64,000 nt of DNA, taken from the NCBI GenBank assembly GCA_022495995.1, contig JAFEMH010002087.1, positions 62,001 through 126,000 of the forward strand. The letters run 5' to 3'. Below the pieces are notes generated by a model, which saw only the letters and a program-made list of their open reading frames with translations, did no database searches and had not been told where the DNA came from. The position numbers and the translations under genes were made by a program. This document shows, one piece after another, positions 19,013-60,851 of the stretch (the first letter of the stretch is position 1; each line of letters starts with the position of its first letter). The DNA comes from Adenophora triphylla var. japonica. Taxonomy: Eukaryota > Streptophyta > Magnoliopsida > Asterales > Campanulaceae.

Positions 19013-19014
19013 GT

Positions 19015-19026
19015 TGGTATCAGAGC
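19015..19026 (+). other. Primer-binding site of element A (tRNA-iMet type)
   Basis: TGGTATCAGAGC immediately after the LTR is complementary to the 3' end of plant initiator tRNA-Met. A second copy lies at 21659-21670 because of the tandem duplication. Confidence 0.9.
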
Positions 19027-19113
19027 ATTGGTTTAGAAGTCAAGGGTAGATGTCTAGTCTAAGGGGGAGTGTGTGATAACTGACGACGAGTGTTTAATGC
19101 AGAAATTTGTTCA

Positions 19114-23784: not shown

Positions 23785-25630
23785 GGATCGCGCGCGGGCT
23801 GCGCGGCGAGCGGTTGTCTTTCGCGGATGTTTGGGACCTCGCTTTCGGGAAGGAGAGGAGTCGCCACGCGGTTTTGTATTTTGAGTCCAAACATTGAAAA
23901 ATGGCTTATGAAAAAATGTGTCGTTTTTATTGGTAGCAAAAATTTGGAAAAGGCTTTGAAAAGGGTGTCGTTTTTATTGGTAGCAAAAACTTGGAAAAGG
24001 CTTTGAAAAGGGTGTCATTTTTATTGGTAGCAAAAACATGACAAAAGGCTTTTTAGTACCAGAGATTGTTAGGTTTGGAGGTCACGTTACGTTTCGGGAA
24101 GAGTATTTTGAGATCACCCGAAATGCCTCGTATGACGAGTCTTTCTACCTTTCTCGAAATTGTGTGTGTCTGTGTGTGTGTTTGAATTTCGAAAATGGGG
24201 GCTTGAATGACAAGCTTAATCTTGGTTTGAATGTCAAACATTGGTTTTATGATTCTTTTGGAAAAAGCGAGCGTTTGAATGACAAACATCGGTTTTGGAG
24301 TTTTTTAGGAAAATAGGTGCGAGTGACGAGTTTTGAATCTTTAACTTAAGTGTCAAATGTTGACTTTTAAGAAAAGAGCGTTTGAATGTCAAACGTCGAG
24401 TTTTGAGTTTAAAGATGATCGTTTGGATGCCAAACGTCACTTTGCGCGTTTTGAAAGAGAGTTCGAATGACGAACTCCGGTTTTGAACCGGGCATTACAT
24501 TGTTAGCGATTTTACGGGAAAAAAGCATTAAATGAGATGCGATCAACGAATCATTTTGTGACTCGGAATTTTGATATGTAAATACTATCACGAGCCAAAT
24601 GGCTCGGACTTGTAAATGACAGTATTTAAAATGCGGTATCAACGGAATCAAACGATCCGGATTTTAAAAGTGCGATCAACGAACCAAACAGCTCGGACTT
24701 GTAAAGTTGCGTAATGTAAATGACATTCAACGTATCAAATGATCCGGATTTTAAATGACTATCACGAACCGAAAGGTTCGGACTATAAAGTTGCGTAATG
24801 TAAATGACATTCAACGGATCAAACGATCCGGACCGTTAAATGACATAAAAAGTAAAGAAACGGGGCCGGAACACCGTTTTAACCCGAGATTACTTCTCTT
24901 ACGGGAGAGAAGAGGATCTTGGACTAAAACGTATCGGACCCCATTGACGGTGACATCTACATTTCAATGACTTTTGACTAAAATGGTTGTAGCGACTGGC
25001 GCGTAAACCTAGATGGAACGAGTGTTTAGGGAGAGAGAGTGTTACTTATGGCTAGGGGTTGACTCTTTTGGCTCGGTTGACGTATACGGGATACGGTTTA
25101 GTGTTTGGAAAGGTGTTTCGAGGTTGTTTGGTTTGTGTTTGATTGAAATACGAGATTTTCATGCAAATCGAGACAAAACGGGGCTCGAGAGAGGGTAAAA
25201 TGTGTTTATGTCGTGGGCTATGGTGAAAATGGATAATGTTTTTATCTCCTTTGAAATGTTTGACAACCCTCTGTATTTATAGGGTGAAATTGTAAAAGAG
25301 TCCGGAAGGACTTATCCTGAATTTGGGGGGGGGAGGTTTGTGGTATTTTAGAAATTGGGAGGACTTGCTGGCAATTCTGTTTTGCCTGAAAAACAGTCCG
25401 GACAGACTGTGACACAATCTCAGGGGCATTTTGGTCTTTTCACTCTGAAATCTGATTGACGTTGACCAGAGGGCCGTGGCATGTGTGCCACGTGCCCCTG
25501 TGACGCACCAGGGCTAGGGTTTTCGTCCCGTTATTCCCGGTTTTGTCCTTTTTTTAAATAACTATCCGGAAAATGTTCGAAATGCCCTCGGAAAGTGCAT
25601 TTTTCAGGAAAAGCTGTACTTTTACGTGTG
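23785..25630 (-). mobile_element. Element B: 3' LTR, inner part (Tat-type, minus strand)
   Basis: This is most of an LTR read leftward. It continues at 40997-41166 once element D is removed. Near its end it carries GCGTGGCGACTCC, the same pre-terminal motif as the LTRs of D and C. A TATA box (TATAAATAC on the minus strand, 25273-25281) has a dyad, CGTGGCA and TGCCACG, upstream of it at 25475-25492. Degenerate repeats occur at 23917-24030 (46-bp unit, three copies) and 24180-24840. The left end against element A is GC-rich and not cleanly defined. Confidence 0.75.
25475..25492 (-). promoter_or_regulatory. Palindrome upstream of TATA in LTR of B
   Basis: Arms CGTGGCA and TGCCACG flank a 4-nt centre, about 195 bp upstream (minus sense) of the TATA box at 25273-25281. 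It may be a binding site for a dimeric regulator; this is inference from symmetry and position. Confidence 0.5.
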
Positions 25631-27791
25631 TGTAAGTACCCAAATCTGGCTCATGCCTTCCGGTTAAGTTTCCCGGCAATTCCCCAGACTTTCCTAAAGT
25701 TCAGGAGCAATTCGGGAACTTTTCCGAACCTTCCGAGAGGCGAAGGAATTACTAGAAATTAAAATTCCACGTTTTCCTTCGGTAGAAAAGCCCTTCTAGA
25801 AGCTGCCACCTTGCAGTCTTCTAGAAGGTAAATGGATAGGGCTTCTTATGTCGTGCGACATATCCTGCCATGACGAATTCTAGAAGCTTCCACCTTGCAT
25901 GTTTCTAGAAGGAAAGCGGTTATGGCTTGTTATGTCGTGCGACATACTAAGCCACTGCCATGCAGCCTATAAATAGAGGCCTGCACCTCTCATTTTAGGG
26001 GAGCCTTTTTCACTCCTTAGTGTGACTCTATCAAGAATATGCCCAGGAGCCTAGTCTCTCTCCTCACATACCCTCCAAAACACATACTAATCCTCTCAAA
26101 TCACTCACCATTCAATCAATCAAACACCACTTCATATACGCACTAAGAACCAACGGTTCTCACTGAACCAAGGCTTGATCTCAGCCCCGGAGGCTGATGT
26201 TTGAAGGCTCCTATATCTAACTTGATATAGGAAGTCGGGGATCTTCAAGGGTAACGATTCTCTATCCTTTTCTCTCCCCCTATATTCCTTATACATGAGA
26301 TCTATGTATTAAATGTGTTGACTTTGATGCATCCAGCGTAAGATCGCATGTTTTAGTCTCATATTGCTTAGATCCACATCTGTTTTTACATCATTTCATG
26401 TAATAGCGTCGGCTTGACATTGTTTTGTATGAACACTCGAGATGAGTGTGGATCCCTCATATCCACACCCTCTTGAAGTGTTCACTATTGACATACTTAC
26501 TCTTTGAGACCCATTTGTGAAGTAACTTGGCTATATTAATGCCTTGCTGCCTCTGTAAATCTCAGTTGCTAAAGTCTCTGCAAGTGGCTAAGTATGTCAC
26601 GCGACATACCTTGCCAGGCAACCTATGTCACGCGACAACTTTGGCCAGTTTGTAGAGCCTTCATCTTTTCAGTTTGTAATCTGATTTCAACCTTTACCAT
26701 GCTGTAATCTAATGTAAATCTGCAATTTAAATAGTATCTTTGTACATATAAATGTCATCTTTTCATTAAAATGTCATCTTCATACATCAAAGTGGCATCC
26801 TTTGCATTAAAGTAGCATCCTTTGCTATTAAAATGATATTTTTTATGCATAAAGTAGCATCCTTTGCACTTAAAATGTCATTTTCACACACAAAGTTGCA
26901 TCCTTTGCATTCAAGGCTTTATCTTTACATCGAAGTAGTATCCTTTGCTTTCAAATGACATCTTTATGCATCCTTTGCACATAAAATGCTATTTTTCTAC
27001 ATAAAGTTGCATCCTTTGTATAAAAAACCATTCTTACATCAAAGAAGCATCCTTTGCACTTAAAATGTCATCTTTTCATTAAAAATGTCATTTTTATCTT
27101 AAATATGCATTCCCTAGTCCCCTTTGGTATTTGATGCATCCTTTGGAGCGGACCGGTGTAAAGATCCTATCTTTACATTGTTTCTTCCATTAAAGGTTCC
27201 ACAATTTCTTTAGAAAGGGATAAACCTTGAACCCTATATCTCCGATCATCACTTGAGACGAGCATAATAGTCCCTATATAAGCTCAATCGTCTCAAGATG
27301 TAGGATTGATGGGCTAAGGATACTCCTTTCTAAAGAACCTCATTTTGGACTATAAGAGGGAGTCCTTCTCTCGGTCACACATGACCCAAGGTCAAATAGT
27401 GATGATCACAAGTCCAAGATGAGGACGGGATCAAAGTCCCGAACACATAAAAATCCAAGGAATCCTGAGCGATAACCAACTAAATGGTTTATACGTCCGG
27501 AAGACAACTTGGAACATCCCCCCTCTTTTCAACACATGCACACAAGAAAGCACGCAAGGAAGCACGAAAAATGGAATCTTGGGAGACTTGCTTCGGCAAG
27601 GCACCTTGGGTGAACGACGATCCGTTCTTTCCAAGGGGTAACTTAACCTCCGAACCCTAATTCCTTTTTTTCAAAGTTTTGAGGAAATCAAAATGGCGTG
27701 GCGACTCCGTTTTTCAAATTAAACCGGATGTCTTCAAACTCAAGTGAATCCAAATTAAAACATAAAAAAGAATTTGGGCACCACATTCACA
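25631..27791 (+). repeat. 5' LTR of element D
   Basis: It starts TGTAAGTACCC and ends CACCACATTCACA. A TATA box (TATAAATAG, 25968-25976) follows two copies of the palindrome TATGTCGTGCGACATA (25847-25862, 25931-25946). Downstream are variant palindromes (26593-26608 and about 26624) and a run of about fourteen degenerate units containing GCATCCTTTGCA (about 26780-27070). The end carries GGCGTGGCGACTCC. Confidence 0.95.
25968..25976 (+). promoter_or_regulatory. LTR promoter TATA box of element D
   Basis: TATAAATAG is a strong plant TATA box. Its counterpart in the 3' LTR is at 39146-39154. Transcription would start some 30 bp downstream, in the CACTCC-rich region. Confidence 0.8.
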
Positions 27792-27794
27792 GTT

Positions 27795-27812
27795 TGGCGA
27801 CTCCGCTGGGGA
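27795..27812 (+). other. Primer-binding site of element D (tRNA-Arg type)
   Basis: TGGCGACTCCGCTGGGGA follows the LTR by three bases. It is complementary to the 3' end expected of a plant tRNA-Arg, the primer known for Ogre/Tat elements. Confidence 0.75.
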
Positions 27813-29450
27813 GAGAAACCAAAGGAGAAAGCTTTCATTTTCAAAATAAAACGATACCCGGTATATAGGTGAAAACCACTAACCTTCCTGTATCGCTTCC
27901 TAACCCGAGGCTTGGGATAAACGATGGTCTAACAATCCCACGTACCGGTATCCTTTTTTTTTCGAGAAAAAAAAGAAGGAAAGCTTTTTTCCTTTGAGTG
28001 GGTTAGCCTCCCATCACGGATTCCATTTGTCGTGCTTGCTTTTTTCTTTCTTTGCATTGCATTGCATATTGCATCTTGGGAATTGTGCATGCTCTGTAAA
28101 CTGAACAGGAAGCCTTCTGAAGCTGAAAGGTGCCTAAAATATTCGGGGAGCAACCTGAAACTGAAAAAGATTGGAACCTGGAAAATTGATCCATGCAGCC
28201 GCACGGCTTAATCCGCCTCGGATTCCAACCGGGCGGCCTCATTGGCAATTCCACCAGGACAGATTTGAGGTTAATCTGGCAGCTTAGGCAGTTTGGGGCT
28301 ATTCAATTCCAAAGCTGACCAGGCTCCAGAAAATTTACGTGCCTTATCTGTTGCATTTTCCCCCGTCCCGAAAAATCATTCCTTTTAAAACACATTTCCG
28401 AAAATCTCTGTTTTAACTCAAAAAGGAACATTTTTTAGGAGACCGCACACTACGCGCACCTTATATATCCTGTACACTTTGCACGCACGTCCATTTAACC
28501 CGGGGTGGTTGTTCAGTTGCAGTCACGGACAGCCTTACGATGCTCCCGGGCGCGCACGGAATCACCCCAAACTCCCCATGGCAGCCAGTGTCGACCAATG
28601 CACAGTCCGTGTCACACGTTTCAAAAAACCGTGACTTTTGGTTGGTTTTTGGTTTAGTCCGTGTCATATAGCCCTGTTGCATATCCCCGTAAAGGTCAAG
28701 CCTTAGTCCATAACGGAAGTCAAGGTCCTTCGCGCAAGCGAAACTCTGCCGAAATTCCGACAAGGAAAAATTGGTAGAATCTTGACTCCGACATTGACTT
28801 TGACCTTGACCCGCACGGGATGCGTAAGAGTCGAGACCAAGTCCGTGCCAAAAATCCAAAGATCTTTCGCGCGAGCGGAGCTCTGCCAAAATTCCGACAA
28901 GGAAAAATTGGCAAGATCTTGACCCGGCATTGACTTCGACTTTGACTCACGCACAGCGTATGCAGCGAAGTTCAATGTGACACTGTGTCATCCGGCTTTT
29001 ACCGCCTGACCCATGCCTATTATCTTCTCGGACATTGCCGAAAAGTCAAAACGTCATTCGCGCAAGCGAAACTCTGTCGAAATTTCGTTAAAGCTGAAAG
29101 ACGAGACTTTCCCGGTATTGCCTTGACTATAATCCGCATCGCTCTTGCGTTAAAAGTTCTTATGACCCGCTAGACCCGTTAGGAGCATTCTTTTCTCTCG
29201 GTCGGTGGGATCCGCGTGCCTTATAGGACCCTCGCCCGGGGCTGTCCACCCTGGGAGGTCGAAATACAGGTGGAAACGAGGGGCTTATATACGTAGTGAC
29301 GGAACCCACTGATCCAGGATCTAGAGTAGTTGCGAAAAAGAAGGGCAAACCCCCTTTTCCAACCAAATAGAATTAATAAAAGACACTGTTTTAAGTAAAC
29401 TTGAACAATTAACGGAATCATAATTGCATGGTCCTATCTCTCAAATCCCT
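27813..29450 (+). other. Untranslated leader of element D, first part
   Basis: No gene is visible. Three diverged copies of a segment containing CGCGCAAGCGAAACTCTG and AATTCCGACAAGG-like sequence occur near 28730, 28868 and 29052, producing chance open frames on the minus strand. Confidence 0.6.
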
Positions 29451-29882
29451 AATCGAGACCTCCTCGGTCCGATCTCCGATTTTCCATCTCGACCTTTCGA
29501 GGTCAAATCTCTAATCGCGACCTCCTCGGTCCGATCTCCGATTTTCTATCTCGACCTTTCGCGGTCAAATCTCTAATCGCGACCTCCTCGGTCCGATCTC
29601 CGATTTTCTATCTCGACCTTTCGCGGTCAAATTTTCAATCGCGACCTCCTCGGTCCGATCTCCGATTTTCTATCTCGACCTTTCATGGTCAAATTCCCAA
29701 TCGCGACCTCCTCGGTCCGATCTCCGATTTTCTATCTCGACCTTTCATGGTCAAATCCCTAATCGAGACCTCCTCGGTCCGATCTCCGATTTTCCTATCT
29801 CGACCTTTCATGGTCAAATCCCTAATCGCAACCTCCTCGGTCCGATCTCCAATTTTCAATCTTGACCTTTCAAGGTCTCATC
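29451..29882 (+). repeat. Leader tandem array of element D (62-bp unit, about 7 copies)
   Basis: Units start with GACCTCCTCGGTC at 29457, 29519, 29581, 29643, 29705, 29767 and about 29830. Each holds two dyads, GACC-TCCTC-GGTC and GACCTTTCnnGGTC. The second varies in its inner bases (GA, GC, AT, AA) while the GACC/GGTC arms persist. The array lies between the primer site and gag. Confidence 0.95.
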
Positions 29883-30161
29883 TTTTTCGATCAATTATGA
29901 TTAGGAGAAAATGTGTTTTGAGTAAAACATAAGCGATAAGTGCATGTTACTTGAGCCTTCAGCCTAAACACTTACCTCCAAGCCTAAACACTTACCTCCG
30001 AGTCTAAACCTTACCTACCCCCGAGTCTAAACCTTGTCTATCCCTTTCCCGCAGCGAGAAAGAAGTGGGTGAGAATATCGGGTCAGCGGCTTGTCAGTGC
30101 AGAAATTTCAGGATCAGATAGTTCGTCAGAATCATCCGTTTCATCAGCCCAGAAATTCAGA

Positions 30162-31609
30162 ATGGCAGATTTGACAGAAATCAGTGAGGGTACAGGAAAT
30201 CCAATGATTAGGAAGGAAGAGTTAGTCCTGGCTTTGGAAAATGCCCATAAGATCCATGAGGAACAACAAGCCATGCTTATCGATGCACTCCGTCGTCATG
30301 GAGTTCACGTAACGGTCGAAACCAACGGTTCTCTGGTCATGGTAGAAAATGAGACTCCAGAAGTAGCCATCTCAGCTCCCCCAGCCTATAACCAATGCCT
30401 TCCCCCATCCGCATACGATCCCTTGCTAAGGACCACTGCTCCTCAGTCTTTTCCAACATCCCAGGCCATCAGGGCTCCATCGTCCTCAGCTCCCCAGAAC
30501 GGATTGGGCTTCACCCCACCTGTCCCTCAGTTTCAGCAATACCTGCCAGTTTATGCTCCAGCTTCACATAATCAGTTTGAGCTATGTGGCTATGTTCTGA
30601 AGCCCCTATACCCACCTGAATGCAATCATGGGTTGCCAAAAGAAAATCTGGATGATTTAAGTTTTCAGTCACTCTAGGACTTAATTGAATTCGGTAGTCA
30701 GTTTCACCAGTTTGCTACTGTGGTTCCCTCTGCTGATAAAAGTCCTGTTGCAAGTTCCAGTAACTCAAGAGTCCCCGTTGACCCCCATGTGGCAATATTG
30801 ATGGAGCAAGTGAAACAAATGCATGAGAAGCTTGACCTCATGATGAGTATCAATACTCCCTTGACTCAAGACGTCGAACCAGGCAAGGAAATGATTCCAC
30901 CAAGCATAACCCAATGCCACCAGCACCAAGCAGCAACCGTACCCAGCTCAGCACCAGTTCCTCACAAAGGAAAGAGTGTCTAGCCTCCTTCAGCCAAATC
31001 CAACAATGGAACCAATTGGACAATGAAAATCCAAGTCTTGAGAACAACAATGTCTCCCAAAAACTCCGCTCCCTTCATTTTGACAATGTGGAGATGCCTT
31101 TAAGCAAGATGCTGGAAGAGCTAATGAAAGAAAAGCTGATAAAGCCACTGGAGAATTGGAAGCCCAAGAATCCCAATGTTCGGTTGGATGAGTCTAAGCA
31201 TTGTCTTTTCCATCAATACCACAGGCACGACAACGATGATTGCAGCCATTTGAGGTATTGGATCCAGAAATTGATAGAAGATGGGAAGCTCGAGAACCTC
31301 CATGGGCCAAAAACAGAAAGCTATGGTAAGAGGTCGATTCAGGAAGTGCAAGGTCAGAAACGTCAGCTTGATGATTTTGGGATGCCCATGAGCAAAGTTT
31401 TTGACGATTTGGTGAGACAAGGCCTTCTCACACCTCTCGAAAATTATAAGCCGAGAAACCCACGTAACGTTGACAGGACCAAGTTCTGCGAATACCACAA
31501 TTATTATGGTCACATGACAGACAAGTGTTTGAATCTGAGGAAAGAAATTCAAGAGTTGATCTACGAAGGAAAGCTCAAGTTCCCTGGCAGTCCAACCAGC
31601 GAAGAGTAG
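30162..31609 (+). pseudogene. gag: gag-like gene of element D, broken
   Basis: From ATG 30162 (MADLTEISEG) the frame runs to a TAG at 30675, continues in frame to 30983, and then must shift to the frame ending at 31609. The first part is Pro/Ser-rich. The last part carries two related modules of the Tat/Ogre gag C-terminus, near 31090-31300 (HYHRHDNDDCSHLR is the degenerate finger after CLFHQ) and 31370-31590 (CEYHNYYGHMTDKC followed by a basic helix). These resemble a C-x2-H zinc knuckle. The usual gag core is not recognisable, and no protease follows. Confidence 0.75.
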
Positions 31610-34600
31610 CTAGACTAGGGTCTACCTATCCTTAAGTAAGACTAAGAAAAAAATAGTCTCTCAGTCAACCTTCGTAGGTTCTAGTACTTTTCTCTTTCAA
31701 TCAAGTCCTCCACGGACATTGTAATTAATCTTCAATTTTCTATAAAAGAGTCTTCTTCTTTTCTTGCTAGACTTAAGACATTATTTGCGCACCTACATTA
31801 CATTTAATGAAATGGTTTTATTTTATATGATCACTTGCATTGCTCAACAAATAATCTCTCGAAATAATTAACATTCTGATTAATCAGTGTGAGAAAGTCA
31901 ACTAATGTCTTCCCCATACACTTTCCTTACCCTACAAAAGGCCCCATCAAGCCATACACTCTCCTTACCTCACAAAAGGCCTTCATCAAGCCATACACTT
32001 TCCCAATCATGCCCCCACCTCCATCTTGACCAAGTCAACAACGGCGGCATCGTCAAGAGACAACAAAAGGCCACTCAGCTTCGAAAGATTGACCCCATGT
32101 CGACAACAACCTAGGAGCTTGCCTTAGACCTCAAGGGTATCAAGAAAGTTCAAGCAGGGGCTCGCCTTGGCCCTCAGGTGCTTCAAAAAAAAAGAAAAAA
32201 ATCTTAGTGCAAAAAGAGTAATGCCCAGCTAGGCTGAAAATCCCAAAAAAGGGCGGTCTAGGCAAAAGACAGGGTTGCACATAAAAAAAAAAAAAGAGAA
32301 AAAATGTAGTGCAAAAAGAGTAATACCCAGCTAGGCTAAAAACCTTGTAAAGGGACAGCCTAGGCAGAAAACAGGGTTGCACATAAAAAAAAATAATAAA
32401 AAAATGAGGCCAAGGACCCAGCGTCACCAATTAAAAGCTTGACGGATAGGCAAAATCAAAGCTCGAAGAATGGATGTTGTCGATAACAATGGGGCGGTCG
32501 GAGCAAAGGCAGAAGCATTTCATAAGTCTTTAGGCACATGCAAATCCTTTCTCCCCCAATGAAAGACGAAAATCAGAAGCAACCGTCCAAAAATGACTTG
32601 GTCAAGGAATCATCCCGAGGCTCATGCCTCATCATCCAACCTCCTCATCCGAGCCTCTCCACCAAAGGAACCACAAATGTTCAAAACCCATTTCCTGAAA
32701 CCGAACACAATCCGGCCGAAGCCGAATTACGGCGACCTGAGCTCCTCACAATGAGGGGAACGTAGGCAACCAAAAATGGTCTGGTCATAATCATATTCGA
32801 ATTCTAGAAAAATTCGATCCCATAGAATCGAATGACCTTTCCCATAAGCACAGTCAAATCCCAGAAAACCCGGTCTCATCAATGACCTCCCTATACACAA
32901 ATCTTTCTTTCACACCAGCCAACCTTGATCCGCGGCATTGGTCGACTTTCTCCTCATGACTAATAAAAATGTTTGTTCATATCGAGATTTGTGGTTGAAT
33001 AACCCGAACATTAATAAAGGGTTTTAAGCAATCTTGTGATCATTGTAAATAAAACAAGTTTTCAGATGTCTTGACAAGTCTTCCTTTTCTACATCTTAGG
33101 AAAGATAGTGTTAAACACTAATTTTCTGTCAGCAGGAGCTTCCATACACTTTTACAAACCTTTCTACGCTTATACTCTCTCAAAAGAGTCAAACCCAAAG
33201 CGAGTTCTTGTGCCTACGTCAAATAAAGCCATCGAAATAACACAAAATCGGGATCTATTCCCACCTTTCGAAAAATATGCCCCTGCATGTATAAATTTCT
33301 AAGAATCTTTTCTTTCACAGGTTGACTGATTGACTAAAGAAAATAAAAAAAAAAAAGAAGAAAAAAGGTAGGTTTCCCTCTTCTGCTACAATTCGCATTA
33401 GGGCTGCCTTGACACTCTTCAAGATTGAAACTTTGCCAAGCCATTTCCTTAGACTGGGGCTTCTTCAGCCATTTTTTGGGTCCGCATCGGGTTCCTCACC
33501 ATGTCACGAGATGGATTCAGTTTAACCTCAGGATCACTTCCGCAGTACCAATCATATTGGGATTTTTGTTAGGTCATTAGATTGGGGCTTCACCAAGTCA
33601 CTTCTTTGTAACTTAAAACTTTGCCTACTCAGTTCGTCCAACCGAGGCTTTGCAACCGGGGCTTTGCCAAATGAAAGGATCTTTCCTTGCTTTAGTAAGA
33701 CATGGGGCTTTGCAGAAATTTTTCCTCAGACCGGGCTCCGATAAGTCGCGTCCACCCCTAGAAGAGAGGTTTGGTCACTTCGACATCTGCTTTAGTCTTT
33801 GGTTATAAAAGCCTGTCAGCATCAGCTTCAAATGCCAGAGTTTGGGAAAGGAACATGGTCTCAGCCCAAGAGGGAATTCTAGTCCACGTTGACAACATCT
33901 CAGCAACAATAACAGTTCAGTCCGCACCCAAGGGATATGACCCCACCTGCTTGAAACCCGTCTCAAACAATTTCCAAACACATTTCATATGTACATCCCG
34001 ACCCAGTCCCTACCATGTTTCCAAGAAAAAAAATCACCCCTAGGCTCAAGTAACGTGCCAATTGCTAATGATAACATTTTCTCCCAAAAGCGCCTCCGTT
34101 ACTTCCGTTATAACGAGATAACGCCAGGCGACAGTTTCCTAATTGTCAAAAATCCAACTTTAGCTACCTCTATCACAGATTGAGAAGTACGCTCAAGTTC
34201 TCCAAAACTTAAGCTACCTCTATCACAGATTGAGAAGTACGCTCAAGTATCTCTTTGCCATGCCCCGGTAGGATCAGGCATGTGACCTCTTTGGTCACCC
34301 AATTCCAACCCGTGTCGGCAATTCCAGTCCAATTCTAAAGGTTATGAAAAGTACAGTTCAGGCTATATATGTCACGCGACAAACCTGGCCACATGGCATA
34401 CTAAGTCGTGCGACATCCTAAGCCAACACCAGACATCAGCAACTTGCAGTATGCTGCATTCCCCAGGGCACTCCCCGACTTGTCAAAAGCTGCAATACCA
34501 CCCATCCACTTCTCAAATGCATGAGGGAGGGTTCATTTACCCCATGTACACCCATACATTCATACTCACCCGGTACATATACCAACCATGAACCTATCCC

Positions 34601-34798
34601 TACAAGCCATCTACCATACCATCATCCTTTCATAAACTCATGCAACAAAAGGAGCTAACAATGTACATACAAAATAAAAGAGACCAAGTCTGATCTTGTA
34701 CAAAAGATGTGCATAGCAAAATAGCATGATTTAGGGTATATGTTTTCCCCAAAAGGGTGCAATAACCCAAAAAGTCATAATAATCTAGGGGGAAGGGG
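31610..34798 (+). other. Long non-coding spacer of element D
   Basis: This 3.2-kb stretch follows gag and has no recognisable protein. It contains local duplications: CATACACTTTCC-type units at 31915-32010, two units of about 120 bp with GCCCAGCTAGGCT (32205-32400), repeated GGGGCTTTGCC-like words (33450-33720) and a 63-bp direct repeat at about 34155-34250. Variants of the LTR palindrome occur at 34367-34382 and about 34402. Polymerase genes expected at this place are absent. Confidence 0.7.
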
Positions 34799-37255
34799 CT
34801 ACTCTGAATCATCTCCATCATCCTTTGAACCATCTTCATTATCCTCCAAACCATCTTCATCATCTCCCGAATCATCATCTTCATCCTCGCCGTCGTCCTC
34901 AGCCTCCTCAAGCTCGTCATCAGGGTCATCAGAGGGTGCCTCGTAGGCTACGGTCCCCATACTATAATAGTCATCAAGCTCAGTGATAACAACAGAATCA
35001 AGCTCGTAGTCCGTGGCAGTCTCAGCCTCACTGTCATCATCATCATCATCGTCACTCTCAACGGGTCCGTGAAGAGGCACATTTGGATTCGTTGTCCGAA
35101 GCTTCGGTCCGCTAGTGCCCCCGCTGGTGCCTACGCCATCAAAGCGGCCCTTCTTCTTTCTCGGTTGGCCAGGTGGGGAGATATGGATCGAATCCTGTGA
35201 CCGACATTGGTTCTTCCAAAAACTCATGCCTTTCTGGAGTTTGCTAATCATGCCCACAGCGCCAGTAAAAGCCCTAGTCAAATGCCTGTAAGCCTGGGCT
35301 GACACCTGTTACAAGCAGACATAATAAATGTTAAAATGCAGTTATTGATAACAGAAAGGGATGCAAGCAATCCAAAAGACGCAAGGGGCAGTACTTACGG
35401 ATTTAGAACCTCGCGGGAGCAGCAGACGAGGATGAGTCTGTGACATGTCAATATGAGCTCGCCGCATACGGCCGCCACCCTTGTAATCAATGAAAGTCGG
35501 GGGCAAAGGAGGTCTAGCCACATGACCAGTCGAGGGTCCCGCGCTCTGAGCATCATAGCCAACTCTGACCCGTGGGACTGAAGATTCCTAGCCACATACA
35601 AGGTGTAATCTCCATCCCGTGTAAAGAGATGTGCCGCCACGCCTACAATAAAAGCATCTACATTCGCCAGCTAGCGAGGCAGCCGCATCCTAGCCGGAGG
35701 ATCATCAGGGATTCGAGCATGCATATTGGGCCCATGCTGTCTGTACACCCTCTCTGCTAAGTATAGGGCATCTCCGGACAAACCCACCAGCAGCTTGCGA
35801 CATTCTGTCAAGTGCGCAACATGATCCAAATCCAGATCGTCATAACGGCCAGTCCAAGGGAACAAACTCATCCTCTGGGGAGTCCCTCTCAAGCATGTCA
35901 GCGTATCATGATACGAGGCCGTAATCCTGCACCTCACACCCTCCGTCCTGGTCTGTCTCCTGGCATTCTTTGCCCACCGTCTGAGAGCAGGAAAAGTGGT
36001 GGCAGGAAACTCATCCCAAATCTGCCATGCATAACAGCCAAAAACCTCATAGGCCCAAGCCTGAAAAGAAGAAGAAGAAGAAGTCAAAACATGGAAAATA
36101 ATGATAGAGTGAAATGTGCAGAAGAAAAGAATTCAAGATGAGAGAATACCTCGAAGGCCAGGTGACAACAGGTGAAATACTTTGCCTTCCCTCTGCTGAT
36201 GTCATCTAGAGCCAAGTACATCTCGGCTAAACCTGCCTCACCCCAGGACAGATTCCCCACGGCATCCCAAGCTCTCAGAAGCTCCAGCAGTGAAATCAGG
36301 GCAGTAGATGCGCTGTTGATAAACAGCATGTCAGAAAAACCCACCCATACAAAGGCTCTCGCCAATCTCTCAGCTCTCAGCCGGCTCTCAGCAGAATCAT
36401 CAACAACAGGGTAGTCCCTACTCTGCTCTCCAATCCAACCACGTAGCTCGCCCAGCTCGTATCCATTCCCCTTCTTGACCTGGGGAACGAAACCAAGTAA
36501 GCTCATAAGGTCGGCATCCGCAATAGGCTGGTGCTCAGCTACCTGTGCAGGCTCGTCCATATAGAGTGGCTCAGCCGTAAAGGGCAATCCCGTGATGACC
36601 GCAAAATCCAACGGTGTGACTGTCGTCTCACCCTAGGAGAAATGGAATGAGTGAGTAGTCTCCAACCAAAACTCCCTAAACGCCTTCACCAAATCCACAC
36701 TCCTCTGGGTGTCTCCGATGGCCTTCGCCATCTCAAAAAATTGCCCCAGCCCAACGGCGTAGACCATGCCCTTAGGCAAATGTATCTGCTCCTGGCTGCC
36801 CGACAAGATCTGCCATAGCCTACCAATCACCTCCGGAGAACCTCGGGTGCGCAATCCCTGCAGGTAAACATAGCACATGTATAAATATCTCATGCTGTTT
36901 CTTGAAATCATCTCAAGTGAAAATAGGTCAAAACCTATCAATGTAGAACATGCATTTAGCATCACATTTCCTAGTTCAATCCATGTTCACATGCAAATTC
37001 ATGTTAACTCATTGCAGTCTGGAAAATCAAGTTCCAATCAATTTCACCCAAATCAATTTTTTTTAAAACCTAGCAAAGGTTACGTACCACAGTTTTCTTC
37101 CCGACATCCGAGGTGTGTTCATCAAGCTGTGGATATAAATCCCCTCTTTGAGCTTGCAGAATGAATGGTCTTTGGTTCCTCTGAACCCCCTTCCGTCGAG
37201 TAGCCAACTCGGCGTGTTGAGGAGCCCTCTTGGTAGGACGTGTTCTAGGAGGCAT
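34799..37255 (-). pseudogene. Antisense plant mobile domain (PMD) gene carried by element D
   Basis: Four exons fit on the minus strand with continuous phase: 37255-37088, 36857-36150, 36060-35410 and 35305-34799, 677 sense codons in all including two TAG interruptions (near 36633 and at 35673-35671). The first follows HSFHFS and replaces the Trp usual in this motif. The protein starts with a basic segment (MPPRTRPTKRAPQ). It then shows the PMD fold signature (LDFAVITGLPF, LARAFVWVGFSDMLF, CHLAFE then AWAYEVFGCYAWQIWDEFP) and ends in a long Asp/Glu-rich tail. PMD proteins (MAIN/MAIL1 family) act in silencing and genome stability in plants, and PMD ORFs are known in gypsy and Mutator elements. 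Its role here is unknown. The donor of exon 3 (GAG/GTTCTAAAT) is the least certain join. Confidence 0.8.
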
Positions 37256-37427
37256 TTCTCCAGCTGAATCGGACTCGAAATGTTTGGTTTCTCTCGATTC
37301 CTCTCAATTTCTCTCCGATGACTACTCTCTCCCGCTTCTCGTTTTCGTCTCCCTCTCAATTTCAATTTTGATTAAGTTCAAATGACGACTGTGCAAATTT
37401 TTAAAAGAATCTGTCCACGTGGCTTCT

Positions 37428-37443
37428 TATGCCGTACGACATA
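37428..37443 (-). promoter_or_regulatory. LTR-type palindrome upstream of the antisense PMD gene
   Basis: TATGCCGTACGACATA is a variant of the LTR palindrome of the same element and lies about 170 bp upstream of the PMD start codon in minus sense. It may mark an internal promoter. Confidence 0.5.
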
Positions 37444-37733
37444 CTTAGCCCATGTGGCTGGTTTTTACAATTTTGCCCCTGAAGGCTCAATTTTACAATT
37501 TCGTCCCCCATAGGCCTGTTTTACCCCTTTGTGCCCCTGGCATTTCCAATCATATCAATCCAGTTTTCCCTCCAGTGCCCCCCGTGGCCTATTTTACAAA
37601 TTTACCCCTGTAGCTCATTTTATTTGCCCCTGGCATTTTCAATTCTACTCTCAAATAATTAAATTATCAGGTACGTCCCGTTTCTTTACAAAAATTATCA
37701 GGTCCTTCCCACTTCTTTACAAAATTCATTCTT

Positions 37734-38529
37734 TCTCGCGATCTCCGTTATTCCCGAACGAAGGAATGACATTTCGCTATCTCGCGATCTCCGTTATTCC
37801 AGGATGAAGGAATAACATTTCGACCTCTCTTTCGATCTCCGTTATTCCAGGATGAAGGAATAACATTTCGACCTCTCTCGCGATCTCCGTTATTCCCGAA
37901 TGAAGGAATAACATTTCGCTTTCTCTCGCGATCTCCGTTATTCCAGAATGAAGGAATAACATTTCGCTCTCTTTCGATCTCCGTTATTCCAGGATGAAGG
38001 AATAACATTTCGACCTCTCTTTCGATCTCCGTTATTCCAGGATGAAGGAATAACATTTCGACCTCTCTCGCGATCTCCGTTATTCCCGAATGAAGGAATA
38101 ACATTTCGCTTTCTCTCGCGATCTCCGTTATTCCAGAATGAAGGAATAACATTTCGCTCTCTTTCGATCTCCGTTATTCCAGGATGAAGGAATAACATTT
38201 CGACCTCTCTCGCGATCTCCATTATTCCCGAACGAAGGAATAACATTTCGCTATCTCGCGATCTCCGTTATTCCAGAATGAAGGAATAACATTTCGCTCT
38301 CTTTCGATCTCCGTTATTCCAGGATGAAGGAATAACATTTCGACCTCTCTCGCGATCTCCGTTATTCCCGAACGAAGGAATAACATTTCGCTATCTCGCG
38401 ATCTCCGTTATTCCAGAATGAAGGAATAACATTTCGCTCTCTCGCGATCTCCGTTATTCCAGGATGAAGGAATAACATTTCGACCTCTCTCGCGATCTCC
38501 GTTATTCCCGAATGAAGGAATAACATTTC
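37734..38529. repeat. 3' tandem array of element D (about 46-bp unit, 17 copies)
   Basis: Each unit contains GTTATTCC and GGAATAAC, an 8-bp perfect inverted pair around an 8-nt loop. Loops vary (CGAATGAA, CGAACGAA, AGAATGAA, AGGATGAA) while the arms are kept in nearly all units. The array lies between the 5' end of the antisense gene and the pre-LTR region. Open frames on the minus strand here are products of the repeat. Confidence 0.95.
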
Positions 38530-38539
38530 GACTCAGTCA

Positions 38540-38808
38540 AATATTCGAACTACGACCTGGCTTGATTCCTCCGGGATACGTAGGTAGCCTACATTAGGTT
38601 CAGCCAATTCGTCACATGTGACACCCCTTTCCCCAGTGGATTCCGAACTATGATCTGGCTTGATTCCTCCGGGATACGTAGGTAGCCTTCCAAAGGTCCA
38701 GCCACTCGACCACCTTGATCACCCAATCCGTCTCGACAGTTCGCCAGATTGGATCCTTGTTTATCGATAACCCCACTCGCCCTACAAGTGATGTTGCCGA
38801 GGGGCTTC
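38540..38808 (+). other. Pre-LTR region and polypurine tract of element D
   Basis: A conserved motif, GAACTACGACCTGGCTTGAT followed by CCTCCGGGATACGTAGG, occurs twice (about 38548 and 38646). The interior ends GAGGGGCTTC just before the 3' LTR, serving as the polypurine primer. The minus-strand element B has the same motif and tract. Confidence 0.8.
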
Positions 38809-40991
38809 TGTAAGTACCCAAATCTGGCTCATGCCTTCCGGTTAAGTTTCCCGGCAATTCCCCGGACTTTCCTAAAGTTCAGGAGCAATTCAGGAACTTT
38901 TCCGAAGCTTCCAAGGGGCGAAGGAATTACTAGGAATTAAAATTCCACGTTTTCCTTCGGTAGAAAAGCCCTTCTAGAAGCTGCCACCTTGCAGTCTTCT
39001 AGAAGGTAAATGGATAGGGCTTCTTATGTCGTGCGACATATCCTGCCATGACGAATTCTAGAAGCTGCCACCTTGCATGTTTCTAGAAGGAAAGAGGTTA
39101 TGGCTTGTTATGTCGTGCGACATACTAAGCCACTGCCATGCAGCCTATAAATAGAGGTCTGCACCTCTCATTTTAGGGGAGCCTTTTTCACTCCTTAGTG
39201 TGACTCTATCAAGAATATGCCCAGGAGCCTAGTCTCTCTCCTCATATACCCTCCAAAACACATACTAATCCTCTCAAATCACTCACCATTCAATCAATCC
39301 AACACCACTTCATATACGCACCAAGAACCAACGGTTCTCACTGAACCAAGGCTTGATCTCAGCCTCGGAGGCTGATGTTTGAAGGCTCCTATATCTAACT
39401 TGATATAGGAAGTCAGGGATCTTCAAGGGTAACGATTCTCTATCCTTTTCTCTCCCCCTATCTTCCTTATACATGAGATCTATGTATTAAATGTGTTGAC
39501 TTTGATGCATCCAGAGTAAGATTGCATGTTTTAGTCTCATATTGCTTAGATCCACATCTGTTTTTACATCATTTCATGTAATAGCGTCGGCTTGACATTG
39601 TTTTGTATGAACACTCGAGATGAGTGTGGATCCCTCATATCCACACCCTCTTGAAGTGTTCACTATTGACATACTTACTCTCTGAGACCCATTTGTGAAG
39701 TAACTTGGCTATATTAATGCCTTGCTGCCTCTGTAAATCTCAGTTGTTAAAGTCTCTGCAAGTGGCTAAGTATGTCACGCGACATACCTTGCCAGGCAAC
39801 CTATGTCACGCGACAACTTTGGCCAGTTTGCAGAGCCTTCATCTTTTCAGTTTGTAATCTGATTTCAACCTTTACCATGCTGTAATCTAATGTAAATCTG
39901 CAATTTAAATAGTATCTTTGTACATAAAAATGTCATCTTTTCATTAAAATGTCATCTTCATACATCAAAGTGGCATCCTTTGCATTAAAGTAGCATCCTT
40001 TGCTATTAAAATGATATTTTTATGCATAAAGTAGCATCCTTTGCACTTAAAATGCCATTTTCACACACAAAGTTGCATCCTTTGCATTCAAGGCTTTATC
40101 TTTACATCGAAGTAGCATCCTTTGCTTTCAAAATGACATATTTATGCATCCTTTGCACATAAAATGCTATTTTTCCACATAAAGTTGCATCCTTTGTATA
40201 AAAAACCATTCTTTACATCAAAGAAGCATCCTTTGCAACCAAGTAGCATCCTTTGCACTTAAAATGTCATCTTTTCATTAAAAATGTCATTTTTATCTTA
40301 AATATGCATTCCCTAGTCCCCTTTGGTATTTGATGCATCCTTTGGAGCGTACCGGTGTAAAGATCCTATCTTTACATTGTTTCTTCCATTAAAGGTGCCA
40401 CAATCTCTTTAGAAAGGGATAAACCTTGAACCCTATATCTCCGATCATCACTTGAGACGAGCATAATAGTCCCTATATAAGCTCAATCGTCTCAAGATGT
40501 AGGATTGATGGGCTAAGGATACTCCTTTCTAAAGAACCTCATTTTGGACTATAAGAGGGAGTCCTTCTCTCGGTCACACATGACCCAAGGTCAAATAGTG
40601 ATGATCACAAGTCCAAGATGAGGACGGGATCAAAGTCCCGAACACATAAAAATCCAAGAAATCCCGAGTGATAACCAACTAAATGGTTTATACGTCTGGA
40701 AGACAACTTAGAACATCCCCCCCTCTTTTCAACACATGCACACAAGAAAGCACGCAAGGAAGCACGAAAAATGGAATCTTGGGAGACTTGCTTCGGCAAG
40801 GCACCTTGGGTGAAGGACGATCAGTTCTTCCCAAGGGGTAACTTAACCTCCGAACCCTAATTTCTTTTTTTCAAAGTTTTTAGGAAATCAAAATGGCGTG
40901 GCGACTCCGTTTTTCAAATTAAACCGGATGTCTTCAAACTCAAGTGAATCCAAATTAAAACACAAAAAAGAATTTGGGCACCACATTCACA
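38809..40991 (+). repeat. 3' LTR of element D
   Basis: It matches the 5' LTR throughout with scattered substitutions and a few indels. Palindromes lie at 39025-39040 and 39109-39124 and the TATA box at 39146-39154. It ends CACATTCACA at 40991, followed by the GTGTG duplication. Confidence 0.95.
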
Positions 40992-40996
40992 GTGTG

Positions 40997-41166: not shown

Positions 41167-43678
41167 AGTTAGCCCCTCAGCGACGTCACTTTCGAAGGAA
41201 GTGGGGTCGTTGAAAAAGATAAGGATCCAAATTGGGGGATGCCTTATTTGAAGAGACCTGAGAGGTCAGCTGGCTGGACCCTTAGCGGAAGGATTCCTAC
41301 GTATCCCGAGCGGGAATTAAGCCGATCGTAGTTCGTAGGTGCAAGGGTCGCGCGTGCGGACCTTGACCTAAGCGAGACTGTTGTGAGGCGTCTGAACCTA
41401 AGTGAGACCATTGTGAGGCGTCTGAACCTGAATGGAGACTATTGTGAGGCGTCTGAACCTGAGTGAGACCATTGTGAGGCATCTGAACCTGAATGGAGAC
41501 TATTGTGAGGCGTCTGAACCTAAGATTACTGAAACTTTCGAGGGCGTGTGGCGCCTCAGACCGAGATTACTGAAACATTTGAGGGCGTGTGGCGCCTCAG
41601 ACCGAGATTACTGAAACATTTGAGGGCGTGTGGCACCTCAGACCGAGGTTACTGAAACATTTGAGGGCGTGTGGCGCCTCAGACCAAGATTACTGAAACA
41701 TTTGAGGGCGTGTGGTGCCTCTGACCGAGATTACGAGGACGTGCTTGTCCTGAGATGAAGGCGTTCGTGCCTTGAGATTGATTTTTGTGAGGCGTTCGTG
41801 CCTTGGGTGTTGGACTTATGATGACAGCCAGGTTTTATCTGCTGTGGATATGGTAGAAATGACGGAAATGGTTGAGTCAAATGAATGTTATAACAACACG
41901 AAAGGATTGACGTTCTAACGACGGGGTTAGGAACGGGATGTGATCACGGGAGAGACTGACACATTGCTGGGGAAAAGTGCCCAGAGTTCTAACAGAATCA
42001 GTTAGGAATCGGGGGGATTGATTGACATTTCTTCTTAGAAGGATGGTCTTAGGATCCTGCTGGGGAGGAATGTTCGGGCTTACGATGATGGCCGAAGAGG
42101 GATTGTTGTGCGGGCTTACCTTGATGGCTGCTGAATTGGGATGGTCGAGCTTACGATGATTGCCGGGGAAGTGAATGTTCACTTGCTGGAGTGAAAAGGT
42201 ATTCGGAATTACGAGGATGACCGAAGAGGGATTGTTGTGCGGGCTTACCTTGATGGCCGCTAAAGTGGGATGGTCGGGCTTACGATTGGCGGCCAGAGAG
42301 ATGAATGTTGGTGAAAACCAATGGGAATTTTGACGTCGGGAGATGGAATTGTGAATTAACGTCCGAAGACGGTTTGAGATTTAACGTCTGGAGACGAAAC
42401 GTTAGTGAGAACTAACGAGAAATTTAACGCCAGGAGACGGAATTGTGTTTTAACGTCCGAAGACGGTTTGAGATTTAACGTCTGGAGACGAAACGTTAGT
42501 GAGAACTAACGGGAATTTTAACGTCTGGAGACGGAATTGTGATTTAACATCCGAAGACGGTTTGAGATTTAACGTCTGGAGATGAAACGTTAGTGAAAAC
42601 TAATGGAAAATTTAACGTCTGGAGACGGAATATTAGTGAGAACTAACGGGAAATTTAACGTCTGGAGACGGAATTTTGATTTAACGTCCGAAGACGGCTT
42701 GAGATTTAACGTCTGGAGACGAAACGTAAGTGAAAACTAACGGGAAATTCAACGTCTGGAGACGGAGTTGTGATTTAACGTTCGAAGACGGTTTGAGATT
42801 TAACGTCTGGAGACGAAACGTTAGTGAAAACCAACGGGAAATTTAACGTCTGTAGATGGAGTTGTGATTTAACGTCCGAAGACGGTTTGAGATTTAACGT
42901 CTGGAGACGAAACATTAGTGAAAACCAACGGGAAATTTAACGTTCGGAGACGGAATGTTAGTGAGGACTAACGGGAAATTTAACGTCTGGAGACGGAATT
43001 GTGATTTAACGTCCGAAGACGGTTTGAGATTTAACGTCTGGAGACGAAACGTTAGTGAGAACTAACGGGAAATTTAACGTCTGGAGACGGAATTGTGATT
43101 TAACGTCTGAAGACGGTTTGAGATTTAACGTCTGGAGACGAAATGTTAGTGAGAACTAATGGGAAATTTAACGTCTGGAGACGGAATTGTGTTTTAACGT
43201 CCGAAGAAGGTTTGAGTTTTAACGTCTGGAGACGAAACGTTAGTGAGAATTAACGGGAAATTTAACATCTGGAGACGGAATTTTGTTTTAACGTCCGAAG
43301 ACGGTTTGAGATTTAACGTCTGGAGACGAAACGTTAGTGAGAACTAACGAGAAATTTAACGTCTGGAGACGGAATTGTGTTTTAACGTTCGAAGACGGTT
43401 TGAGTTTTAACGTCTGGAGACGAAACGTTAGTGAAAACTAACTGAAAATTTAACGTCTGGAGACAGAATTGTGATTTAACGTCCGAAGACGGCTTGAGAT
43501 TTAACGTTTGGAGACGAAACGTTAGTGAAAACTAACTGAAAATTTAACGTCTGGAGACGGAGTGTTAGAAATGTCTAATTAGGATTTAACCTCGGGGAGG
43601 GGGTGTTAGAAAGGTCTAACTTGGAGAAATTTCACACTTTTGTAGGCCAAAAGGGGTAAAATTGAAATTGTGAGAAGC
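41167..43678 (-). mobile_element. Element B: interior with tandem arrays (minus strand)
   Basis: Read leftward, the polypurine tract GAGGGGCTAAC adjoins the LTR, preceded by the motif GGGATACGTAGG and GAACTACGATCGGCTT shared with element D. Further in are three arrays: about 37-bp units with GAGGCGTCTGAACCT (41385-41530), 42-bp units with GGGCGTGTGGCGCCTCAGAC (41525-41740) and the dyad array at 42330-43570. No protein-coding gene is visible. The rest of the element, if present, lies beyond the insertion of C. Confidence 0.75.
42330..43570. repeat. Dyad-rich tandem array of element B (about 90-bp unit, about 12 copies)
   Basis: Every unit combines three dyads: CGTCT-GG-AGACG, CGTC-CGAA-GACG and CGTTAGT-GAGA-ACTAACG, the last with GAGA or GAAA in the centre. 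Some units are incomplete. The arms are mostly conserved across the array. Confidence 0.95.
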
Positions 43679-44936
43679 TGTTAGTACCCGACCTGAAAAT
43701 ACCCCTGATAGGCATTAAGGAACCTCTGAGGACCTCTCAGTCATTTATGAGTTTTAATAGGCTCAAGTAATATTTCCCCGAAAGCCCTTATTTGTAGTTT
43801 TAGAATCCCGATAGACCAAATATCAGCTAAAACTTCCGAAGGCCATAACTTTCTCATAAGAACTCCGTTTTGGGCCCACCGCATATCAAATCGAACGGGA
43901 GAATGTGACTGACAAGAAGAAAGGGTCGATCGACCCTTTCCATAAACGCCGCCTTTTAAAAAATGGTCGAATGACCCTTTCCAGCCGCCTTTTAAAGAAG
44001 GGTCGAACGACCCTTTCTCCTTTCCCACATCACTTTCGCAGCTTTTCCTCCCCAATTCCTTTCACTATATAAACCCCACTCTGCCTCACACTTTGAAGGG
44101 AGAATCATTCTACGGAAAACTCAAGACAAAACTTGAGACTTCCTCCATAGAAAACTTGAGACTAAACTCGAGTTTTCTAAGTCTAAATATTTTCTCAAGA
44201 ACGTTCTTCGAATCTTCATAGATTCAATCCAAAAGCCTTGCCATCATTAGGTAAGTCTTCTGTTTATTTTTCTGTCTTTATTATTATTGTCTTTATTATT
44301 ATTATGCTAGATTTATTATTTGCATTCTTAGTATATTTTAATTACTTTATTTCTTGCGTATGTCATATATGCTAGATTTAGGGTTGTTTTAATATATTTA
44401 TGCATAGCCGAGAATGGTCTAGGGTTTGCACTCAAGCCCTTACTAGACCTAGGAACTACTTTCTCTCCCTTTCCTTTAGTAATAATTATTCCCATGATCA
44501 ACAATTCTCCAATAATGGACGTTGATTAGTACGCCTTTCAAGGATCTAATCAAAGGGTCCTAGGATGTGATCATCAAAACCATTTTCTTTCTCTCCCCTC
44601 CTCCTTATGCATGATCCCGCTTCTCCTATCTATTCCTGTAAACACCACACACAACCAACACCCCATATGCTAGAAAGACCGATCCGTCGGGCAATAGGAG
44701 TGATAGCGTTTCTTCTTCTGTTGTAACTTGACCCCCGAACCCAATTACATATTTATCCTTTTTTCAATGCTTTGGGCTATATCAAAGCGGCGTGGCGACT
44801 CTCATAAAATTAAACTAATATTTTTAATATGGTTTAAATCGAGTGTCACTTAATGAATATCCCATTTCGGTCCGACTTCCATGATTATTTATTTTAAACC
44901 TCCGAATGCGCGTTGCATCGGGACGGGGTATTCACA
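43679..44936 (+). repeat. 5' LTR of element C
   Basis: It begins TGTTAGTACCC and ends GGGGTATTCACA before the primer site. It holds three GGGTCGA-type palindromes (43919-44017), a TATA box (TATATAAA, 44066-44073) and the pre-terminal motif GGCGTGGCGACTC. The 5-bp left flank is GAAGC; its partner is outside the window. Confidence 0.85.
43919..43940 (+). promoter_or_regulatory. Perfect 22-bp palindrome upstream of TATA in LTR of C
   Basis: GAAAGGGTCGA is followed immediately by its exact reverse complement. Two imperfect copies follow (about 43963-43983 and 43997-44017). The TATA box is at 44066. Confidence 0.8.
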
Positions 44937-44955: not shown

Positions 44956-45657
44956 ATGTTTTGAACTTTTTCAAACTTAGTGGGTCAGACTTTCGTTTTC
45001 CTTTGTGGTGTTGTATTTTGCTTTCTTTTTATTTTCTTTATTCTTAACTGTTGCATTGCATGCATACATCTCCTAAAAAAAAAAAAAAAATCTTTCCCTT
45101 TTTTTTTAAAAAAAAAAAAATTAGATTTTTTACCTCACACTACCACTAGAGTCCATGTCACACTGCACAGACACCCTTAACCCATCGGAGAAGCCAAAGT
45201 GCGGGAAGTGTGGTGATCATGTCGCCCCCCTTCCGAGTCTCACTTGGCCATCCACTCATCAGTGCGCTTCGGCTGCACGGTGGAAGCCTGAAACCTAACC
45301 TTTGTGTCACCCACTTTGCTAGGAGTACACTCCCTGTGACAAGTTGGTTTGACTAGCTTTTTCCTATAGACAATTAATATAGTATTCATATTGTGTCAAC
45401 ACGAGTCAATGATGAGTCGAGATCTATTTCCTTTTAGAGGACGTGCCATGAAAGGTAAGTGATCGATCTTGTCCTATCATCGAATTGTCGGACCCACAAT
45501 GAATATTATAGTAAACGTCTATAGGCGAAGGTTAGTTGTTAGGATCCACCACTTTAGGAATGCTAGATAGTTGTGAAAAAGGGGTATCCCTTCCAACCAA
45601 ATGTAGGATCTATAAAAATAGAAGGCTTTTTTGTAAATAAAATGCTTAACTATCCTT

Positions 45658-54887: not shown

Positions 54888-54902
54888 AACTCCCCCACAC
54901 TT

Positions 54903-55999: not shown

Positions 56000-56042
<43 letters not shown>

Positions 56043-58471: not shown

Positions 58472-58529
58472 AGGTTCATTATTTATAGGATCATTTTTAT
58501 TTCTTCCTTTGATTTTGTTTCCTCACCCT

Positions 58530-60729: not shown

Positions 60730-60851
60730 AAACTACAAGAAAAACACTTGAAGAGAAATTAAACGCAATGATTATAGGATAGGAAAGCAAAATAGTAAAA
60801 ACAAAAACTAAAAATTTGTAGTAAAGACAAAAATAAAAAGTAAACCGTTGT

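Follow-up and report, generated by a model that had tools for sequence, protein, structure and literature searches.

A multi-exon plant mobile domain gene carried antisense by a multicopy LTR retrotransposon subfamily without detectable pol in Adenophora triphylla

How can a gene with introns persist in a retrotransposon, and what is it doing there? This question is raised by element D, a 15,361 bp element at positions 25631-40991 of the 64,000-nucleotide stretch of Adenophora triphylla var. japonica DNA that we analysed (the window), which carries a four-exon plant mobile domain (PMD) gene in antisense orientation. The explanation that we favor, at a probability of roughly 0.65, is that D represents a multicopy subfamily that has no detectable pol, contains a sense gag-like ORF and an antisense PMD gene maintained by selection, and is mobilised in trans. 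The answer bears on the reasons for which antisense genes are retained by LTR elements and on what PMD does. If pol-less elements keep PMD through selection of their own, then gag-pol is gone as a confounder and what is selected must be some benefit of PMD itself, a question that the hundreds of PMD copies in this one genome make testable.

Both borders of D are well defined (Table 1). Its LTRs of 2,161 and 2,183 bp have the termini TGTAAG...TTCACA, a GTGTG target duplication flanks both sides, the primer-binding site (PBS) behind the 5' LTR is presumably of the tRNA-Arg type, and a purine-rich stretch that we take as the polypurine tract (PPT) precedes the 3' LTR. With two TG...CA LTRs, a target duplication, a PBS and a purine-rich stretch, D is an LTR retrotransposon, and the preliminary description of a 15.4-kb element with secure ends is borne out at 15,361 bp. 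The K2P distance between the 5' and 3' LTRs is 0.020 which, at the substitution rates of 1.3e-8 to 6.5e-9 per site per year used for dating, gives as a rough guide ~0.8-1.6 million years since insertion. Downstream of the PMD stop codon there is also a short repeat in two copies (34165-34250), and at the equivalent place the copies on contigs C2596 and C927 are longer by ~0.6-0.8 kb, with the extra sequence in C927 consisting partly of a 49-bp tandem array.

Table 1. Coordinates of element D and of the antisense PMD gene within it (window positions).
Feature	Positions	Strand	Details
Target-site duplication, 5' side	25626..25630	.	GTGTG
5' LTR	25631..27791	+	
Primer-binding site	27795..27812	+	TGGCGACTCCGCTGGGGA, behind 5' LTR
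Gag-like ORF, sense	29988..31609	+	broken into 29988-30677 and 30836-31609
PMD gene	34799..37255	-	four exons, broken in window copy; ATG starts at 37255, stop codon 34801-34799
Exon 4	34799..35305	-	507 nt; lysine-rich stretch, acidic tail, terminal stop
Intron 3	35306..35398	-	93 nt, GT-AG
Exon 3	35399..36060	-	662 nt; remainder of PMD domain; TAG 35673-35671 and frame-breaking deletion
Intron 2	36061..36149	-	89 nt, GT-AG, phase 0; column shared with PMD2-group intron
Exon 2	36150..36857	-	708 nt; start of PMD domain; premature TAG 36635-36633
Intron 1	36858..37087	-	230 nt, GT-AG
Exon 1	37088..37255	-	168 nt; begins with ATG
Tandem array	37725..38574	+	46/48-bp units, between PMD gene and 3' LTR
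Purine-rich stretch, taken as polypurine tract	38796..38808	+	GCCGAGGGGCTTC, before 3' LTR
3' LTR	38809..40991	+	
Target-site duplication, 3' side	40992..40996	.	GTGTG

The internal region of D exhibited no match to reverse transcriptase (RT), RNase H or integrase, either by tblastn with one RT-RH-INT protein or by Pfam searches of selected ORFs, in agreement with the earlier claim that D lacks all three. In that run, the tblastn query did produce weak matches to other loci, and it had no match in the parts of two sister elements contained in L043 and L045. With this one query and selected ORFs, the absence of pol was examined in three copies (the window, C2596 and C927), and D may contain a diverged pol remnant beyond the reach of the tblastn and Pfam searches. 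As far as is detectable, D is a non-autonomous LTR element that is without RT, RNase H and integrase. PMD is not all that it carries, as a broken sense ORF is also present inside. This ORF contains motifs of the CX2HX4HX4C form, which we take to mark it as gag-like, and it had no Pfam match above the cut-offs. The C2596 copy has no match of at least 150 bases to part of the gag-like stretch of the window (30403-31645). A region similar to this ORF is also present in the next element of the window (47210-47449, with 50% and 39% identity to its two motif repeats), with tandem arrays nearby at 42192-43705 (94-bp spacing) and 45535-46164 (30-bp spacing).

The remainder of the window contains additional features. 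Two adjacent direct repeats of ~2.64 kb at 17507-22786, each of which contains a Retrotrans_gag ORF, are 96.4% identical and separated by 17 bp, and represent a tandem duplication within a Gypsy-like element other than D. There is also a nested insertion within 47907-64000, where an element at 53320-62437 with 98.7% identical LTRs and a match to ATHILA ORF-1 is located within a repeat pair that is 98.3% identical. Finally, an ORF at 2248-3357 that matches DUF7755 at 205.8 bits and, weakly and under the cut-off, CGL160_C looks like a host gene.

In regard to the PMD gene, the preliminary description of four antisense exons with an acidic tail is correct as to the anatomy but not as to an open gene, as the window copy is a pseudogene with two in-frame TAG codons and a frame-breaking deletion. 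Its exon 3 is 662 nt long relative to 666 alignment columns that are filled in most copies. The profile search that had been proposed as a check gave a match in an open copy. Residues 107-411 of the 680 in the spliced protein from this uninterrupted sister copy match PF10536 at 79.7 bits, above the curated cut-off of 34.9 bits, but the pieces from the window copy score 32.0 and 12.3 bits, which is under that cut-off. A homologue search with the PMD protein returned none at E 0.001 among 7,999 scored candidates from a collection that seems to be without plant proteins, and the PMD family was matched in none of 14 control genomes. Six copies that are open have unspliced runs of 300-311 codons and encode spliced proteins of 676-681 residues. 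Surveys of uninterrupted ORFs would thus log this gene merely as a fragment; the stronger statement that such surveys would miss it was rejected, since the unspliced runs of open copies reach at least 300 codons.

The gene is present in many copies, so that the preliminary description is not refuted by other copies lacking it. When the PMD gene region was used to search the DNA of its own genome (2.48 Gb), the best 40 of 2,686 candidate places were scored and the 39 of these located outside of the window are 90-96% identical to the query. We aligned the window copy with the next 29 by score (L009-L038), a set of 30 that constitutes best matches and not a random sample. Introns 1, 2 and 3 are present in all 30 aligned copies, with GT at 90 of 90 donor sites and AG at 85 of 90 acceptor sites. 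For intron 2, one of the three, we also searched the whole 2.48 Gb with a 31-base pattern allowing up to 3 mismatches. This revealed 479 places with the exon 2/intron 2 junction versus none with the corresponding pattern for a spliced exon 2/exon 3 junction, and reversed-pattern controls returned 0 for both searches. Thus no copy was found that had lost intron 2. Together with the antisense placement in 33 of 33 pairs described below, this provides good support for the earlier claim that the antisense orientation keeps the introns. Six of the 30 copies have neither an internal stop nor a frame-breaking gap, and four of these six also retain the ATG, the splice sites and the final stop; the other 24 have one or more internal stops. 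Two D-type PMD sites on the same strand and only 8.4 kb apart (G000:C919:254135 and 262548) were also noted, possibly as a duplicated or recombinant element.

We then asked of each variant among the 30 copies whether it was a replacement or a silent change, relative to an expectation matched for base and for CpG/CHG context; the sequences are related, sampled as best matches and placed in a single alignment. Singletons are near neutral (341 of 490 are replacements, for a ratio of 0.90, z -1.1). The ratio falls to 0.63 for variants present in 2-4 copies (130 of 236) and to 0.44 for variants present in at least 5 copies (63 of 131), such that all shared variants together have a ratio of 0.55 (193 of 367, z -5.9). 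As controls, shared variants were read in the shifted frames (1.28 and 1.72), in the opposite-strand frames (1.36, 0.58 and 1.56) and in the introns in three frames (0.83, 1.65 and 0.75). Note that the ratio test alone cannot separate the PMD frame from the opposite-strand frame with a ratio of 0.58, where the third positions are those of the PMD frame; this opposite-strand frame has 25-34 stops per copy. Over the exon columns of the 30 copies, the number of stops per copy is 0-6 in the PMD frame, terminal stop included, as compared to 13-69 in the five other frames. Gaps with a length divisible by three account for 23 of 38 gap events in exons and for 14 of 39 in introns. The tail exon is less constrained, with a ratio of 0.49 for variants in at least 5 copies and a ratio of 0.79, which is not significant, for those in 2-4 copies.

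Stop codons were subsequently mapped onto a maximum-likelihood tree, where 36 stop positions need 56 events and inheritance is possible at 2 positions; from the branch lengths, 8.5 of the 56 would be expected as internal stop events (P 0.006). Most of the stops occur at CAG, TGG and CGA codons, as expected from the deamination of methylated cytosines. The idea that inherited stops prove amplification of broken PMD genes was rejected, given that 15 of the 17 shared positions need as many changes as there are carriers, which is explained by recurrent C-to-T changes mostly at these codons. The low ratio among shared variants, the near-neutral singletons and the few inheritable stops indicate that progenitors kept a working PMD gene and that copies decayed after landing. 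Statistically, the PMD gene is thus shown to be intact in active lineages while decaying in individual copies after insertion. The constraint on the PMD frame that was to be looked for in other copies is therefore present, at 0.55 of expectation for shared variants and with 6 of 30 copies uninterrupted, and the neutral decay everywhere that would have spoken against the preliminary description did not occur.

The layout of D recurs at sister loci. A search with the gag-like protein of C927 scored 119 of 58,486 candidate places, 48 of which have an open frame of at least 480 residues. Comparison of these 119 places with 110 listed PMD places gave 33 pairs within 12 kb, and in every one of these pairs the PMD gene is downstream of the gag-like ORF, in antisense, at a distance of 4.2-5.5 kb; none are on the same strand. 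The remaining 86 gag-like places have no PMD within 12 kb among those listed, which are about a quarter of the PMD places. This narrow spacing in 33 of 33 pairs indicates that the layout itself propagates. Likewise, 4 of 40 places that have the LTR end and leader also have a PMD site 8.4-9.7 kb downstream, all antisense, among the 100 of 479 PMD sites listed. Five loci were read together with their flanks (the window, C2596, C927, C375 and C1970). D-type LTRs flank both sides in C2596 (97.1% identical) and in C927 (stretches that are 98.3 and 96.9% identical), and the C2596 element is bordered by GTCAC and GTCCC which are identical at 4 of 5 bases. In C1970 there is a D-type LTR that ends ~340 bp short of the region downstream of PMD, indicating that this copy is rearranged. 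For C375, an intact element in which gag follows the array was considered and rejected, as the D part there is fragmentary and the flank resembles another inserted element; the gag in that flank is similar to the gag of the window at 51086-53347.

The ends of D are much more abundant than its PMD gene. Matches to the 5' LTR/PBS junction number 7,398 and those to the PPT/3' LTR junction 10,438, versus 479 for the PMD junction, a ratio that is rough because the rate of drift is not the same for the three junction patterns. Of the 35 PBS places listed, 8 have a PPT on the same strand within 30 kb, at distances of 6.5, 10.7, 13.2, 13.7, 14.3, 14.8, 14.9 and 15.6 kb, relative to 11.0 kb in D of the window; these pairings use the first places listed, so some may be wrong. 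We infer that the LTR, PBS and PPT ends of D belong to a larger family that includes pol-bearing elements.

From these results, D would belong to a multicopy subfamily of LTR retrotransposons without detectable pol that carries a four-exon PMD gene in antisense near the 3' end, most likely moved in trans by pol from the larger family that has the same LTR, PBS and PPT ends. Genomic RNA would be produced from the sense strand in which the PMD splice sites are not read, and this is the likely reason that the introns survive each round of retrotransposition. The PMD gene would be expressed from the opposite strand and spliced, coding for a protein of ~680 residues that, judging from its lysine-rich stretch and acidic tail, is probably nuclear. 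Lineages that found new copies would keep the PMD frame by purifying selection, with single copies decaying once inserted. As to function, MAIN and MAIL1 act in silencing (PMC5418596, PMC7156037) and PMDs encoded by transposable elements (TEs) have been proposed as counter-silencing proteins (PMC5418596, PMC8616336), which makes counter-silencing the most plausible role. Within the favored explanation, shielding of its own element from MAIN/MAIL1-type silencing is thus the likeliest function of the PMD protein, although we give it somewhat less than an even chance.

Additional information on the history of this gene comes from a second multicopy PMD group in the same genome, PMD2 (L048 and L050). 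PMD2 has a phase-0 intron of 75-76 nt at the alignment column of D intron 2, just before a W-A-W/Y stretch, although the two groups are only ~23% identical over ~197 residues; PMD2, read to the end of the domain, also has a further intron (the second, phase 2) that is absent from D. We read the shared position as a likely sign that a spliced gene has been passed down within mobile elements from a common ancestor, the alternative being independent gain at the same site. By comparison, eight uninterrupted and probably genic PMD loci (L001-L008), which as the highest-scoring uninterrupted matches are a biased sample, have no intron at this position, and the D protein has short or weak matches to six of them and none to the other two. 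The earlier characterization of the gene as host-like is therefore doubtful, as its intron is shared with PMD2 instead. The shared intron position bears on whether PMDs have a host-gene or a TE origin, since the derivation of TE PMDs from host genes or the reverse was left open by one study (PMC5418596). Uninterrupted PMD ORFs of 464-840 residues, probably host genes, were also seen in clusters (four on C2537, three on C739 and two on C3696).

An RT-RH-INT sequence is located ~6-7 kb from PMD2 in L050 on the opposite strand. That PMD2 resides in an autonomous element, as a full-length parent, was considered and dropped as doubtful because, among the pol and PMD places listed, the pol neighbor at C1830 was not found near other PMD genes. 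Among 115 PMD and 73 scored pol places listed, a PMD and a pol place share a contig in two cases, at a distance of 7.3 kb on C1830 itself and of 35.7 kb on C2. Between the PMD2 gene and the RT-RH-INT ORF there is a solo LTR of the D type with ATATG at either end (L050:3111-4852), and a long tandem array of ~570-bp units is located beside the C1830 PMD2 gene (L049:1545-8229).

One alternative is that the PMD gene is passive baggage, that is, a host gene or fragment that was caught once and copied along unused. Gene capture by LTR elements is known (PMC7264820), and the broken window copy, the internal stops in 24 of 30 copies and the singleton ratio of 0.90 are all congruent with an unused gene. 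We consider this very unlikely, given a shared-variant ratio of 0.55, no more than 2 stop positions that fit inheritance, a single arrangement in many copies, only weak similarity to genic loci and an intron in common with PMD2. Another alternative is that the constraint arises in full-length elements with both pol and PMD, from which the pol-less D copies are deletion derivatives that inherit the gene. PMD is found in 57% of Ogre elements (PMC6317226), and five of the eight readable PBS-to-PPT distances are 13.7-15.6 kb, as compared to 11.0 kb for the window copy, which would fit with the existence of longer elements. The narrow 4.2-5.5 kb spacing in all 33 gag-like/PMD pairs, with the content of this spacer read in the window, C2596, C927 and partly C375, argues against such a parent, which leaves it rather doubtful.

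The PMD protein could also serve the life cycle of the element through nuclear import, packaging or transcription, a role like those proposed for Grande gene23 and the Retand antisense proteins, and not function against silencing. This would fit with its lysine-rich stretch and acidic tail, and with antisense proteins of other elements being nuclear or having DNA-linked domains, for which regulatory roles have been proposed (PMC7264820, PMC11963269). We view this as a real possibility but not a probable one, as PMD is a domain of the silencing factors MAIN and MAIL1 (PMC5418596, PMC7156037) and a trans-acting factor would presumably be less needed by an element that is served by others. It is also conceivable that the antisense transcript acts in place of a protein, as dsRNA or small RNAs that regulate the element. 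An RNA role has been proposed for antisense ORFs (PMC7264820), and in tea there are 175 phased small-RNA loci at PMD genes (PMC10673657). Frame-specific constraint and the excess of exon gaps in multiples of three point to a protein, and we thus regard an RNA role as quite unlikely. Returning to the favored explanation of a pol-less subfamily with a selected PMD gene, a wider version that we offer tentatively, as unlikely in full, would be a split system in which a donor supplies pol and pol-less D supplies a selected PMD against host silencing. Multi-exon PMD genes would then have been inherited in retrotransposons, introns included, since before the split of D and PMD2, and TE PMDs would be old spliced genes and not recent captures.

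Comparison with known systems places D between several types of elements. PMD-A1 and A2 have been described as encoded exclusively by Gypsy elements (PMC5418596), and PMD is the commonest non-canonical Gypsy domain in another survey (PMC9289625). As in the PMD-A Gypsy clades (PMC5418596) and Ogre (PMC6317226), the PMD protein of D is encoded by an LTR element, and D has an extra PMD ORF as found in 57% of Ogre elements (Tat/Ogre lineage of Ty3/Gypsy). D has no detectable pol, an antisense gene and three introns, whereas the published descriptions compared do not mention the orientation or introns of their PMD genes. The genic PMD proteins MAIN/MAIL (PMD-C) have the PMD domain in common with D and are host genes; our comparison of D to probably genic PMDs is to the eight uninterrupted loci. 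Grande gene23, RIRE2 and Silene Retand (PMC7264820, PMC11963269) have, as does D, an antisense gene that lies past the coding part and ahead of the 3' LTR, and Retand also has tandem repeats near this gene. However, Retand proteins carry TRP28 where D carries PMD, with TRP28 (PF04195) having no match in the D PMD protein or in the window pieces scanned, and the antisense genes of all three have no introns in the descriptions compared versus three in D. Multi-exon antisense genes of plant LTR elements did not come up in the titles, abstract starts and passages considered, which is no proof of absence as the Steinbauerova et al. 2011 survey and the Grande gene23 paper are outside of this scope; one paper calls for the study of antisense and spliced transcripts (PMC7264820). 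D also resembles non-autonomous LTR elements that are mobilised in trans in having LTRs, a PBS, a PPT, a target duplication, many copies and no detectable pol, but is unlike them in that one non-structural gene is kept under purifying selection. Thus, while PMD in Gypsy elements (PMC6317226) and antisense genes (PMC7264820) are already known, what is new in D is a multi-exon antisense PMD gene that is under selection, that resides in copies without detectable pol, and that shares an intron position with PMD2.
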